Below are positions 10,169 through 38,229 of a stretch of 64,000 bases of DNA, piece by piece. The stretch comes from an uncultured Erythrobacter sp. Lineage in GTDB: Bacteria > Pseudomonadota > Alphaproteobacteria > Sphingomonadales > Sphingomonadaceae. The position numbers and the translations under genes were made by a program. How positions within the stretch are numbered: position 1 is the stretch's first letter; the number at the start of each line of letters is the position of its first letter. Location: NCBI RefSeq assembly GCF_958304185.1, contig NZ_OY284433.1:1-64000 (forward strand), read 5' to 3'. Below the pieces are notes generated by a model, which saw only the letters and a list, made by a program, of their open reading frames with translations, was not told where the DNA came from and did not search any database.

Positions 10169-10179
10169 TGATCCAACTT

Positions 10180-10271
10180 CGTCATGCTGAACTCGTTTCA
10201 GCATCCATCGTGCCGCAACGAGCCGCCTGCGCGTAAGGAGAAATGGACCCTGAAACAAGTTCAGGGTGACG
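10180..10271. repeat. Double-hairpin palindromic repeat (TTCAGGGT/TTCAGCAT type), copy 1
   Basis: Two hairpins back to back: ATGCTGAA with TTCAGCAT (10184-10204) and ACCCTGAA with TTCAGGGT (10247-10267). The ends CGTCA and TGACG are complementary and so are the inner CCAT and ATGG, so the whole unit can fold as a cruciform. The same unit is found at 26807-26894 and 38139-38229, in the intergenic gaps of other genes, with the arms kept and the middle 30-40 bases variable. This is a REP/BIME-like element. Here it lies between the VOC gene and the GNAT gene. Confidence 0.88.
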
Positions 10272-17488: not shown

Positions 17489-17545
17489 GGGCCTAACGCT
17501 TCGCTGCTTGAGGCCCGATCAGTCCGGTTTTCCTGAGGAGGAACA

Positions 17546-22602: not shown

Positions 22603-22638
22603 AAAAGGCCCGCCTGCTCGGTTGAGCGGGCGGGCCTT
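22603..22638 (-). terminator. Strong hairpin terminator downstream of rpsA
   Basis: GGCCCGCC and GGCGGGCC arms with an inner GCTC/GAGC pair form a long GC hairpin. On the minus strand it is followed by TTTT. It ends transcription arriving from rpsA, just before the gloB start at 22570. Confidence 0.85.
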
Positions 22639-22663
22639 CCTTGTTGTCCTATCGCTGCGCTAC

Positions 22664-22776
22664 TTGAGGACGGCGTCGACACCGCAGGTGTCGCAAGGCC
22701 GACTGGCCGCCCGCAGGTGCTCGCGCGAAGCGCGAAACGCACCGAGGACGCTCGCCCGGAGGGGCGAGCGCCTCAA
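22664..22776 (-). repeat. Structured multi-hairpin element with covarying stems, copy 1 (after rpsA)
   Basis: Read on the minus strand, starting four bases after the rpsA TGA. The closing pair is TTGAGG (22776-22771) with CCTCAA (22669-22664). Inside are hairpin A, GCTCGCCC/GGGCGAGC (22769-22750); hairpin B, GGTGC/GCACC with inner TCGCGC/GCGCGA (22743-22716); a 25-nt core (22716-22692) beginning CTGCGGGCGGCC; and hairpin C, CGACACC-TGC-GGTGTCG (22693-22677). Copy 2 at 28767-28877 has the same order and core (24 of 25 identical) with different but complementary arms. It may be a structured RNA or a structured repeat. Confidence 0.75.
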
Positions 22777-22779
22777 TGA

Positions 22780-24486
22780 TCAATCCTGGCCCTTCTTGAG
22801 CGCGGCGCCCAGAATGTCGCCGAGCGAAGCGCCCGAATCCGACGAACCAAACTGAGCGACAGCTTCCTTTTCCTCGGAAATCTGACGCGCCTTGATCGAG
22901 AAGTTGGGCTTCTTCGAACGGTCGAAACCGATCACCATCGCGTCGATCTTGCTGCCGACCTGGAAGCGGTCGGGGCGCTGTTCGTCGCGGTCACGGCCAA
23001 GGTCAGCGCGCTTGATGAAGCCGGTCGCACCGTCTTCGCCAACCTGCACTTCCAGCCCGCCGTCACGCACTTCGAGCACGGTGACAGTGACAGTCTGGTT
23101 CTTGCGCAGCGAACCGCCGCTGGTGGCGCCTTCAGCCGACGGAGCACCCTTTTCGAGCTGCTTCATGCCGAGGCTGATGCGCTCCTTGTCGACATCAACG
23201 TCGAGCACGATGGCCTTGACCATTTCGCCCTTGCGGTGAAGCGCCAGCGCGTCCTCGCCCGAGATGCCCCAAGCGATGTCCGACATGTGAACCATGCCGT
23301 CGACGTCGCCATCGAGGCCGATGAACAGACCGAATTCGGTGGCGTTCTTGACTTCGCCTTCGACTTCGGTGCCGACCGGGTGCTTCTCGGCGAACTCGTC
23401 CCACGGATTGCGCTGGGCCTGCTTGAGGCCGAGGCTGATGCGACGCTTGTCGCTGTCGACTTCGAGCACCATCACATCGACTTCCTGCGAGGTCGAGACG
23501 ATCTTGCCTGGGTGGACGTTCTTCTTGGTCCAGCTCATTTCCGAAACGTGGACGAGGCCTTCGATGCCGGCTTCCAGTTCGACGAATGCGCCATATTCGG
23601 TGATGTTGGTCACCTGACCCTGCAGCTTCATGCCGACCGGGTACTTGGCAGCAACGCCATCCCACGGATCGCTTTCCAGCTGCTTCATGCCGAGGCTGAT
23701 GCGCTGGGTTTCGGCGTTGATGCGGACGATCTGCACCTTCACGGTATCGCCGATGGCGATCACTTCGCTGGGGTGGTTGACGCGCTTGTAGCTCATGTCG
23801 GTGACATGGAGCAGGCCGTCGATGCCGCCGAGATCCACAAAGGCACCATAATCGGTGATGTTCTTGACCACGCCGTCGATGATCTGGCCTTCGACCAGGT
23901 CATTGATCAGCTCGCTGCGCTGTTCGGCGCGGGTCTCTTCGAGCACCGCACGACGCGAGACCACGATGTTGCCGCGACGGCGATCCATCTTGAGGATCTG
24001 GAACGGCTGCGGCACGTCCATCAGCGGGGTGACGTCGCGCACGGGGCGGATGTCGACCTGCGAGCCGGGGAGGAACGCCACGGCGCCATCGAGATCGACG
24101 GTGAAGCCGCCCTTGACGCGGCCGAAGATGCGGCCTTCGACGCGCTTGCCTTCGCCGAATTCGCTTTCCAGCTTGTCCCAAGCCGCTTCGCGGCGGGCGC
24201 GGTCACGCGACAGCATGGCTTCGCCGTCAGCGTTCTCGACGCGGTCAACGAAGACTTCGACTTCGCCGCCGACGGTCAGGCCGTGGTCGTCTTCGCCGCG
24301 GCTGAATTCCTTGAGGGAGATGCGGCCTTCGCTCTTGAGGCCGACGTCGATCACGGCAAAGCCGTTTTCGATCGCAGTGACGGTTCCCTTGACGACGCGG
24401 CCTTCAAAGCCATCTTCGCCGGCACCGCCGAGTTGTTCATTGAGCATCGCCTCGAAATCGGCGCGCGTGGGCATCTGGGTTGCCAT
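22780..24486 (-). CDS. rpsA: 30S ribosomal protein S1
   Basis: A 568-residue RNA-binding protein that brings mRNA to the 30S subunit. Six S1 OB-fold repeats can be followed: the first two are divergent and bind the ribosome (from about residue 29 and 115), and the next four are typical, with VKNITDYGAFVDLGGIDGLLHVTDMS, VTNITEYGAFVELEAGIEGLVHVSEMS and later copies. The end carries GSSDSGASLGDILGAALKKGQD. Its position downstream of aroA and cmk is conserved across proteobacteria. A structured repeat element and a terminator follow the stop. No leader structure could be assigned in the 392 bases upstream. Confidence 0.97.
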   Translation of the reverse strand: MATQMPTRADFEAMLNEQLGGAGEDGFEGRVVKGTVTAIENGFAVIDVGLKSEGRISLKEFSRGEDDHGLTVGGEVEVFVDRVENADGEAMLSRDRARREAAWDKLESEFGEGKRVEGRIFGRVKGGFTVDLDGAVAFLPGSQVDIRPVRDVTPLMDVPQPFQILKMDRRRGNIVVSRRAVLEETRAEQRSELINDLVEGQIIDGVVKNITDYGAFVDLGGIDGLLHVTDMSYKRVNHPSEVIAIGDTVKVQIVRINAETQRISLGMKQLESDPWDGVAAKYPVGMKLQGQVTNITEYGAFVELEAGIEGLVHVSEMSWTKKNVHPGKIVSTSQEVDVMVLEVDSDKRRISLGLKQAQRNPWDEFAEKHPVGTEVEGEVKNATEFGLFIGLDGDVDGMVHMSDIAWGISGEDALALHRKGEMVKAIVLDVDVDKERISLGMKQLEKGAPSAEGATSGGSLRKNQTVTVTVLEVRDGGLEVQVGEDGATGFIKRADLGRDRDEQRPDRFQVGSKIDAMVIGFDRSKKPNFSIKARQISEEKEAVAQFGSSDSGASLGDILGAALKKGQD

Positions 24487-26784: not shown

Positions 26785-26806
26785 GCGCAGGCACCCATTC
26801 CTTCAT

Positions 26807-26894
26807 CGTCACCCTGAACTTGTTTCAGGGTCCATTTGTCGGTTGGTTCGGAGCCCCGATGATCCATGGATGCTGAAACAAGTTCAGCATGACG
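26807..26894. repeat. Double-hairpin palindromic repeat, copy 2
   Basis: Same unit as 10180-10271 in the opposite orientation: ACCCTGAA/TTCAGGGT (26811-26831) comes first and ATGCTGAA/TTCAGCAT (26870-26890) second, bounded by CGTC and GACG. It fills most of the gap between aroA and the small membrane protein gene, leaving little more than ten bases on the aroA side. Confidence 0.88.
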
Positions 26895-28423: not shown

Positions 28424-28765
28424 ATGGCAAAGCCCGAATGGGGTACCAAGCGTACCTGCCCCAAGTGCGCGGAGCGCTTCTACGATCTCGGCAAGGAAGA
28501 CCCGGTCACCTGCATCGAATGCGGTGAGACATGGTCGCCGGAGCCGGTGCTCAAGTCTAAGCAGCCGATTCCCTTCGAGGAAGTCGAAAAGAAGAAGGAT
28601 GTCGATGCTGACGCCGATCTCGGCGGTGATGACGATATCGATGATCTGGAAGACATCGAGGACATCGACGAGGACGGCGATTCGCCCGACAATGATGTTG
28701 ACCTCGGCGGTGACGATGATCTGGGCGTTGCCACCACGGGCGACGACGAAGATCACGAGAATTGA
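28424..28765 (+). CDS. TIGR02300-family protein with N-terminal zinc ribbon and acidic tail
   Basis: A 113-residue protein found mainly in alphaproteobacteria. The N-terminus MAKPEWGTKRTCPKCAERFYDL holds a four-cysteine zinc ribbon (C12, C15, C30, C33), and the FYDL sequence names the FYDLN-acid domain family. Residues 58-113 are extremely acidic (Asp-rich, with repeated DLGGDDD). The role is unknown; the acidic tail suggests protein or nucleic-acid mimicry. A structured repeat follows immediately after the stop, and tRNA-Ala and ffh lie downstream. Confidence 0.92.
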   Translation: MAKPEWGTKRTCPKCAERFYDLGKEDPVTCIECGETWSPEPVLKSKQPIPFEEVEKKKDVDADADLGGDDDIDDLEDIEDIDEDGDSPDNDVDLGGDDDLGVATTGDDEDHEN

Positions 28766-28766
28766 T

Positions 28767-28877
28767 GGTCCGCACCCCGTCCGGGGTGCGGAATCCTCGC
28801 TCATGCGACCTCGCGGTCGCATCGCTGCGGGCGGCCGGTCGGCCTTGCGGTTGCTGCGCAACCGTTTGACGGACCAA
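28767..28877 (+). repeat. Structured multi-hairpin element with covarying stems, copy 2 (after TIGR02300)
   Basis: It starts just after the TIGR02300 stop. Hairpin A is TCCGCACCCC/GGGGTGCGGA (28769-28792), hairpin B ATGCGACC/GGTCGCAT (28803-28822), then the 25-nt core (28825-28849) shared with copy 1, then hairpin C CGGTTGC-TGC-GCAACCG (28848-28864). GGTCC near 28767 can close with GGACC at 28871-28875. The core's GGCC-GGTC-GGCC can itself form a small hairpin. Compared with 22664-22776, hairpin arms differ in sequence yet remain complementary, and hairpin C keeps both its length and its TGC loop. Confidence 0.75.
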
Positions 28878-38115: not shown

Positions 38116-38138
38116 GTAGCACGCAAAACATAGCTATT

Positions 38139-38229
38139 CGTCATGCTGAACTTGTTTCAGCATCCATCCCGCACCATAGAGCGTCCGAACGTGAGGCGCG
38201 ATGGACCCTGAAACAAGTTCAGGGTGACG
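38139..38229. repeat. Double-hairpin palindromic repeat, copy 3
   Basis: Same orientation as copy 1: ATGCTGAA/TTCAGCAT first, then ACCCTGAA/TTCAGGGT, within CGTCA and TGACG. It fills the gap between the S9 peptidase stop and the asd start, leaving 30 bases for the asd ribosome site. Confidence 0.88.

Follow-up and report, generated by a model that had tools for sequence, protein, structure and literature searches.

The window, a 64,000-nt stretch of DNA from an uncultured Erythrobacter sp., carries two structured elements, one behind rpsA on the minus strand (copy 1) and the other behind a gene of the TIGR02300 family on the plus strand (copy 2). Both lie where an earlier note, made from the letters of the sequence alone, had placed them.

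22780..24486, minus: rpsA (30S ribosomal protein S1), upstream of copy 1; last 477 residues match NCBIfam NF004955 at 887.7 bits (cut-off 878)
22770-22677, minus: copy 1, covariance model match, starting 9 nt 3' of the rpsA stop
22749..22770, minus: copy 1, hairpin A, CGCTCGCCC-CTCC-GGGCGAGCG
22709..22748, minus: copy 1, hairpin B, type I, TCCTCGGTGC...GCACCTGCGGGC, conserved flanks CTCG and CGGG
22697..22708, minus: copy 1, hairpin D, GGCC-AGTC-GGCC, within the "core" of the earlier note
22677..22693, minus: copy 1, hairpin C, CGACACC-TGC-GGTGTCG
22648..22669, plus: module 2 repeat (CCTAYCGCTNCGCTACTTGAGG), antisense to rpsA, between copy 1 and the rpsA terminator
22607..22636, minus: classical intrinsic terminator of rpsA, past the element
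28424..28765, plus: TIGR02300 family gene, upstream of copy 2; NCBIfam TIGR02300 at 55.4 bits (cut-off 41.65)
28770-28864, plus: copy 2, covariance model match, starting 4 nt 3' of the TIGR02300 gene stop
28769..28792, plus: copy 2, hairpin A, TCCGCACCCC-GTCC-GGGGTGCGGA
28793..28832, plus: copy 2, hairpin B, type II, ATCCTCGCTCATGCGACC...GGTCGCATCGCTGCGGGC
28833..28844, plus: copy 2, hairpin D, GGCC-GGTC-GGCC
28848..28864, plus: copy 2, hairpin C, CGGTTGC-TGC-GCAACCG

The 25 nt described as common to the two copies, with one difference, and the arm sequences quoted for them proved correct. A core pattern allowing up to three mismatches matched twice in the window and never in 100 dinucleotide shuffles. 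When folded as RNA, copies 1 and 2 were more stable than all 200 shuffles (z -5.0 and -2.9), and their opposite strands likewise beat all 200 (z -4.4 and -5.2). Two structural details required revision. The core, which had been taken as single-stranded, contains a fourth hairpin, D (GGCC-NGTC-GGCC); this hairpin is absent from the minimum-energy folds of copies 1 and 2 themselves, and because its free positions covary in other copies, the core is partly paired. In place of the closing stem proposed around the unit, we saw none common to the aligned copies, as judged by eye only and not systematically; the 3' strand of the stem in copy 1 (22664-22669) falls within another repeat, module 2 (22648-22669).

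A family of four-hairpin repeats

Copies 1 and 2 are two of roughly 40-50 in the genome. They belong to a covarying repeat family of defined layout, which shows a bias in position and strand, following predicted protein genes and a number of noncoding RNA genes, and is exchanged at its slots in a related genome. The core pattern, again with up to three mismatches, was found 37 times across the 3.29 Mb of the genome; the backwards control gave 3. A genome search by covariance model, as the earlier note had proposed, was run with a model (R1) whose 11 rows have type I-like spacing; L013 and L003 among them differ in hairpin B. At E<=1 it gave 52 matches in the genome, and 34 of these had an E below 1e-3; the figure of 52 is rough, since 150 of 7396 first-look candidates were scored.

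The unit is about 95-110 nt long, and on the sense strand it reads T-rich linker, hairpin A, TCCTCG, hairpin B, GCGGGC, hairpin D, TTGCG, hairpin C. Loops and arms were parsed in 115 of 143 copies entered, the 28 that failed the core parser being left out. Hairpin A mostly has 8-11 pairs and carries the loop NTCC in 99 of the 111 A hairpins parsed (CTCC 53, ATCC 37, GTCC 9). Hairpin B, sorted by eye, comes as type I (GGTGC..GCACC), type II (CTCATGC..GCATCGC) or type III, which has almost none, and the CTCG/CGGG stem includes a nearly invariant U-G pair (118 of 131 rows). The consensus of hairpin D is GNNC-NGTC-GNNC. Its arms are GGGC/GCCC, GCGC/GCGC or GCCC/GGGC in other copies, and of 42 cells at its two free positions (21 distinct cores), 40 are Watson-Crick. 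The most frequent loop of hairpin C is TGC (36 of 114). T is enriched right after the stop, with fractions of 0.77, 0.58 and 0.62 at positions 1-3 of 26 element-bearing genes versus 0.21, 0.22 and 0.18 in 68 background gaps; behind hairpin C (114 copies) it makes up 0.31, 0.43, 0.22 and 0.20 at positions 1-4 and 0.15-0.23 at positions 5-11.

Within the genus, matches at E<=1e-3 were found in 36 of 37 genomes searched (own included). Under strict filters, 34 of the 149 genomes searched in the GTDB family had a match at E<=1e-4, representing 22 of 96 genera. In 24 genomes belonging to other families of the order, the covariance model had no match. When named genomes were scanned with an exact pattern, the matches listed (at least 120 stretches) were mostly Erythrobacteraceae records. 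A related D-C core occurs in Sandaracinobacteroides (Sphingomonadales) and in the Maricaulales Glycocaulis and Woodsholea, one Glycocaulis core (L105) lying inside a predicted gene. All those in Rhizobium, Kitasatospora, Byssovorax and three others fall within predicted genes and look like chance matches. We rejected a plasmid-borne or phage-borne element after one copy, used as query, gave no match at E<=1e-3 in plasmids or at E<=1e-2 in phages.

Local clusters were also seen. In Croceibacterium xixiisoli (L100, 2386-4669), eight core matches lie within 2.3 kb on one strand, a local expansion of D-C. Four copies occupy about 4.4 kb of the own genome (G000:C1:1651091-1655445; L164, L024, L005), namely a tandem pair after tRNA-Trp, one copy after nusG and one after rplA.

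Position at 3' ends and exchange at orthologous sites

Positions were scored against genes from a codon-usage gene caller trained on the own genome, not against annotation, and noncoding genes from ARAGORN and Rfam were added in the own genome only. A sense feature lies upstream of 43 of the 52 own copies. With small overlaps scored as near, 30 of the 52 have the start of hairpin A no more than 20 nt behind a sense-strand 3' end, and the mirror case, the C-end within 20 nt of an antisense 3' end, occurs in 5 (binomial p 2e-5). The 34 best own copies gave 25 versus 3. In other genomes, 96 matches gave 50 versus 10 (p 2e-7); they came from 135 (100 of 120 pattern loci searched), one at a contig end (L106) and the 38 weakest being left out. 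Within 40 nt the contrast is weaker, 36 versus 12 in the own genome and 53 versus 20 in the others. All these are counts of sequences rather than of independent events and, because related species share sites, not all are independent. None of the 96 matches of other genomes and none of the own 52 lies inside a predicted gene. The 22 own copies that are not within 20 nt of a sense 3' end include some that are antisense or far, and some antisense copies are flush with both neighbours (e.g. C1:1392938). Location at random with respect to gene ends and strand, the outcome that would have spoken against the earlier note, was thus not observed; both position and strand are non-random.

Genes upstream of copies include rpsA, purH, ctrA, nusG, def, rplA, fabZ and rsfS; when 20 of 28 upstream proteins were compared with NCBIfam, four had no family at E<=1e-10. 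Five own copies follow noncoding RNA genes at 11-17 nt, those for rnpB, a CC2171-like sRNA, 6S RNA, tRNA-Trp and tRNA-Lys, and further copies stand 39 nt behind tRNA-Thr and 58 nt behind tRNA-Ala. The CC2171-like sRNA (Caulobacter CC2171; L158 1316-1483, G000 contig 2) scored 54.3 bits, below the gathering score of 75, and is followed by two tandem elements; its counterpart in L185 is on the opposite strand and does not adjoin the copy. Among 18 loci of other genomes with copies far from a predicted gene we found two tRNAs, neither adjoining on the same strand, and among eight further loci three tRNAs, none adjoining upstream, so the evidence for an association with noncoding RNAs comes from the own genome and, in relatives, from rnpB. 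Both window copies do start within a few bases of a stop codon (9 nt and 4 nt), as had been pointed out, but the stop codon is not the landmark. Since rnpB, 6S RNA, the sRNA and two tRNA genes carry copies, the slot is one at the 3' end, and these copies rule out a stop-codon or ribosome element as the general reading.

At rpsA, most of 30 loci of the genus (one incomplete) have a hairpin after the stop, as judged by eye. B-D-C is clear in four (L245, L266, L268, L269) and, by eye, degenerate in a fifth (L274), while lone hairpins account for four weak model matches (E 0.02-0.76). The C arms of rpsA copies from several species are similar (ACACC or GCACC), which favours descent with loss; the element at this site is probably old. 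Hairpin A may be rpsA's own and lie outside the unit there, because most rpsA genes keep a hairpin in its place without B-D-C. Inspection of L245-L274 by eye showed a lone GC hairpin directly after the stop in most rpsA orthologues, besides the terminator, with or without B-D-C.

Among 30 loci of the TIGR02300 gene, six (L275, L277, L281, L284, L287, L298) have a sense match beside the stop and one (L302) an antisense match; the element-free state could be deletion. Behind rnpB (30 loci, own left out), five (L309, L319, L324, L328, L329) have a model match to the element on the rnpB strand at a downstream distance of 10-61 nt, as does, by coordinates, G013. Module 2 occupies the rnpB slot in four loci (L315, L330, L331, L332, by eye), three in a row in L330 and L331, and the remaining loci have a lone hairpin, a terminator (L307) or nothing.

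In a related genome, G010, the corresponding slot may be occupied by a different type or a different repeat, or be empty. Over 1.1 Mb of G010, 23 of the 52 own copies have both flanks, and 18 (15 gaps) were compared. A regular expression found the core at 7 of the 18 sites, and altered copies were seen by eye at three more. At C1:1113164, arms A and C have changed in coordination. At C1:2100487, type II stands against type I, and at C1:1988674 type I against type II. The slot of C4:116704 holds another repeat, that of C2:109532 has module 2 where hairpin D would be, and those of C1:28770 and C1:2064670 are empty. No clean insertion with target duplication was seen by eye at the 18 sites. Nested and tandem modules were also visible by eye. 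Module 2 itself (CCTAYCGCTNCGCTACTTGAGG) was found 15 times in the genome, where the backwards control gave 2; its places include 22648-22669 and 17492-17513 in the window and five places between C2:47672 and 48057.

Covariation and the explanations weighed

Covariation was measured on an alignment of 134 distinct rows. Pairing was seen in 94.0% of cells (66.8% after shuffling), both sides had changed in 29 of 31 pairs (22.5 after shuffling), and double changes numbered 922 cells (292 after shuffling); none of 500 shuffles matched any of the three measures. The possibility raised earlier of no compensatory pairs beyond chance can thus be set aside, since covariation is far above the shuffled controls. 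The earlier note had taken compensatory change as the signature of a selected structure. What stands is a conserved multi-hairpin element with compensation far beyond shuffles; this is not in itself proof of a selected RNA, because hairpins A, C and D together show no wobble bias.

If selection acted on a sense RNA, G-U would be expected to be tolerated and A-C not. In an alignment fitted to the covariance model, the G-T:A-C counts were 38:40 in A, 18:21 in C and 3:5 in D, or 59:66 for the three together, and a second parse of an overlapping set gave 6:12, 11:9 and 1:0, respectively. Control counts were 23:2 in tRNA stems (23 of 24 tRNAs, ARAGORN's own bias included) and 18:5 in rpsA terminators of the same genus (24 distinct hairpins from 30 loci). 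By Fisher's test, A+C+D differed from the tRNAs (p 2e-5), from the terminators (p 0.007) and from both (p 3e-6), on counts that are not independent. Because they lack the wobble asymmetry of tRNAs and terminators, the palindromes A, C and D look as if kept on DNA, and their wobble data point to DNA-level palindromes rather than to proven RNA selection. Helix B, at 38:16 (p 0.004), does show a wobble bias, and the CTCG/CGGG stem gave 137:4, one U-G pair accounting for most of the count. Helix B and this stem do not speak for maintenance at the DNA level, and B, judged by these mispairs, favours some RNA role. Template switching in DNA replication can create and keep hairpin stems, as described in PMC8794818. 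The strand-fixed loops (NTCC, 99 of 111) go beyond what template switching alone would ensure.

Our best explanation, held with moderate confidence, is that Erythrobacter-type Sphingomonadales have a dispersed repeat which is non-coding, palindromic and REP-like, is arranged A-B-D-C after a T-rich linker, and mostly lies in sense orientation directly behind the 3' ends of transcription units. Copies would spread into 3' slots by copying or recombination through some enzyme. Their arms would be kept self-complementary chiefly at the DNA level, by quasi-palindrome template switching or selection for a DNA hairpin, with selection on a sense RNA playing the smaller part. Once transcribed, the element may form a structured 3' trailer that shields the 3' ends of mRNAs and noncoding RNAs from 3'-to-5' exonucleases, and copies would be tolerated or favoured behind 3' ends because of this shield. 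No match to the Y1 transposase (PF01797) was found in the own genome, and a RAYT-driven REP was rejected on that ground; the control matched in 5 of 14 known genomes. Nor was a reverse transcriptase found in the own genome, and a retro-element was rejected likewise. The spreading step is thus without a named agent among the enzymes searched for in the own genome, Y1 transposase and reverse transcriptase.

A selected cis-acting RNA, that is, a 3' UTR or trailer structure whose loops (NUCC, UGC) and linkers (GCGGGC, UUGCG) would be recognised by a protein or ribonuclease controlling where mRNAs and stable RNAs end or how stable they are, is a possible but rather unlikely alternative. It would account for the sense orientation behind both mRNAs and noncoding RNAs, for loops that stay constant while arms vary, and for the wobble bias of helix B and the nearly invariant U-G pair of the CTCG/CGGG stem. 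The absence of such a bias in A, C and D argues against it, as does the separate terminator at rpsA. It would also be unusual for a needed regulator to undergo turnover and type exchange at orthologous slots and to be matched in no more than 34 of the 149 genomes searched in the wider family (strict filters). We consider it quite improbable that the unit is a non-classical transcription terminator, its hairpins acting without a U-tract, alone or with Rho, and hence placed behind transcription units. Divergent neighbours flank only one of the 52 own copies (C1:80535, RNA genes counted), convergent genes can have copies back to back, one per gene (C4:116704 and 116840), and the rnpB slot of one species (L307) holds a classical terminator instead, all of which would fit. 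However, hairpin C is not followed by a T-tract, a classical terminator is still present further downstream of rpsA and, as judged by eye, of the gene preceding C1:2064670, and several of the 30 rnpB loci have, by eye, nothing recognisable instead. As a terminator substitute the element was rejected: classical terminators were not rarer behind element-bearing genes (6/28 versus 6/68, p 0.10), as scored with a strict finder that missed the rpsA terminator.

Neutral debris, short palindromes expanding by template switching and recombination and surviving behind genes, where they are least harmful, seems to us equally improbable. The near-equal G-T and A-C mispairs in A, C and D, the lack of copies inside predicted genes (0/96, own 52 likewise), the lineage-specific turnover and, by eye, the nested and tandem modules are all consistent with it. 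Random survival would not, however, yield sense orientation near the 3' end (30:5 and 50:10), and it leaves the strand-fixed loops unexplained. More speculatively, and with rather low confidence, we raise a strand-specific copying process at the 3' ends of coding and noncoding genes, in which unrelated palindromic repeats (types I-III, module 2, perhaps CGTC-REPs) would compete with and replace each other without RAYT or reverse transcriptase, their stems being re-perfected on DNA.

If the reading as a REP-like repeat with a protective trailer holds, a mostly sense-oriented repeat taking up the first bases after mRNAs, RNase P RNA, 6S RNA and tRNAs would provide a natural set of interchangeable 3' trailers. 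Comparing species with and without the element at the same gene would then allow a test of a long-standing question, namely whether palindromic repeats have a function at RNA 3' ends or simply persist there. The family also illustrates that covariation alone can mislead: its arms co-vary strongly, yet in three of four hairpins the wobble test gives no preference for a sense RNA. With a covariance model of the family, many intergenic copies in Erythrobacteraceae genomes could be labelled.

Relation to known repeats

Rfam, searched at the gathering score, gave only one tRNA in the window. For 13 loci with copies it gave, at E<=1, three matches, all of them off the element. In the literature searched (titles and abstract openings, subscription papers mostly outside), we recognised no description of the four-hairpin family, and word searches of PMC2267715 and PMC4741004 likewise gave nothing on it. 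Mosaic repeats such as pneumococcal BOX consist of exchangeable modules that are inserted, swapped and arranged in tandem. The modules of our family are inserted, swapped and in tandem in the same way, a likeness by description to repeats of a different lineage. The attC sites of integrons have arms that are variable yet self-complementary and lie behind stop codons in sense orientation. Our element shares these variable self-complementary arms and the sense placement behind stops; in contrast to attC, its copies adjoin housekeeping genes. The best match to the integron integrase TIGR02249 in the own genome reached 73.6 bits against a cut-off of 265, with similar weak matches in all 14 control genomes, and attC was rejected in the absence of an integrase above cut-off in the own genome.

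REP repeats are the closest kind, and we read the four-hairpin family as REP-like but of a new design. According to PMC3733652, REP/BIME repeats of the CGTC and GTAG super-families are dispersed, palindromic, mostly intergenic and predominantly behind coding regions. For CGTC-1 of S. wittichi, the same source places most repeats between convergent genes less than 20 bp from 3' ends, and those between co-directional genes near the upstream 3' end; CGTC repeats apparently have no dedicated transposase (PMC3733652). The four-hairpin repeat is likewise dispersed, intergenic and found behind ORFs. Unlike REP, described as a single stem-loop of 20-40 bp, it spans four hairpins over about 100 nt and has no unpaired CGTC or GTAG tag, so that it does not fall under the definition by tag and single stem. 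Many type I copies do have the letters CGTC where A joins B, but their CG is paired in stem A, and type II and III copies examined by eye are without them. It further differs from REP in its biased orientation to the gene, its presence also behind rnpB, 6S RNA and tRNA genes, and its very variable arms with fixed loops and linkers.

PMC12306157 reports an action on translation for E. coli REPs that lie no more than 15 nt from a stop codon, and the four-hairpin copies lie in the same range of distance behind stop codons. A ribosome-based role cannot be general, because some noncoding RNA genes carry the element at the same distance. In the available text of that paper, which presents RepRanger, Erythrobacter cryptus is named once, in a table (PMC12306157). 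With the template-switch hairpins of PMC8794818 our element has perfect stems and multi-base compensatory changes in common; as described, those hairpins concern RNA genes, whereas ours belong to a dispersed repeat in which A, C and D lack a wobble bias. Elsewhere in the window, at 10178-10271, 26806-26894 and 38137-38229, lie three inverted pairs of a short palindrome that starts with TCGTCA and ends with TCCAT, which fit CGTC-type REPs as described in PMC3733652.
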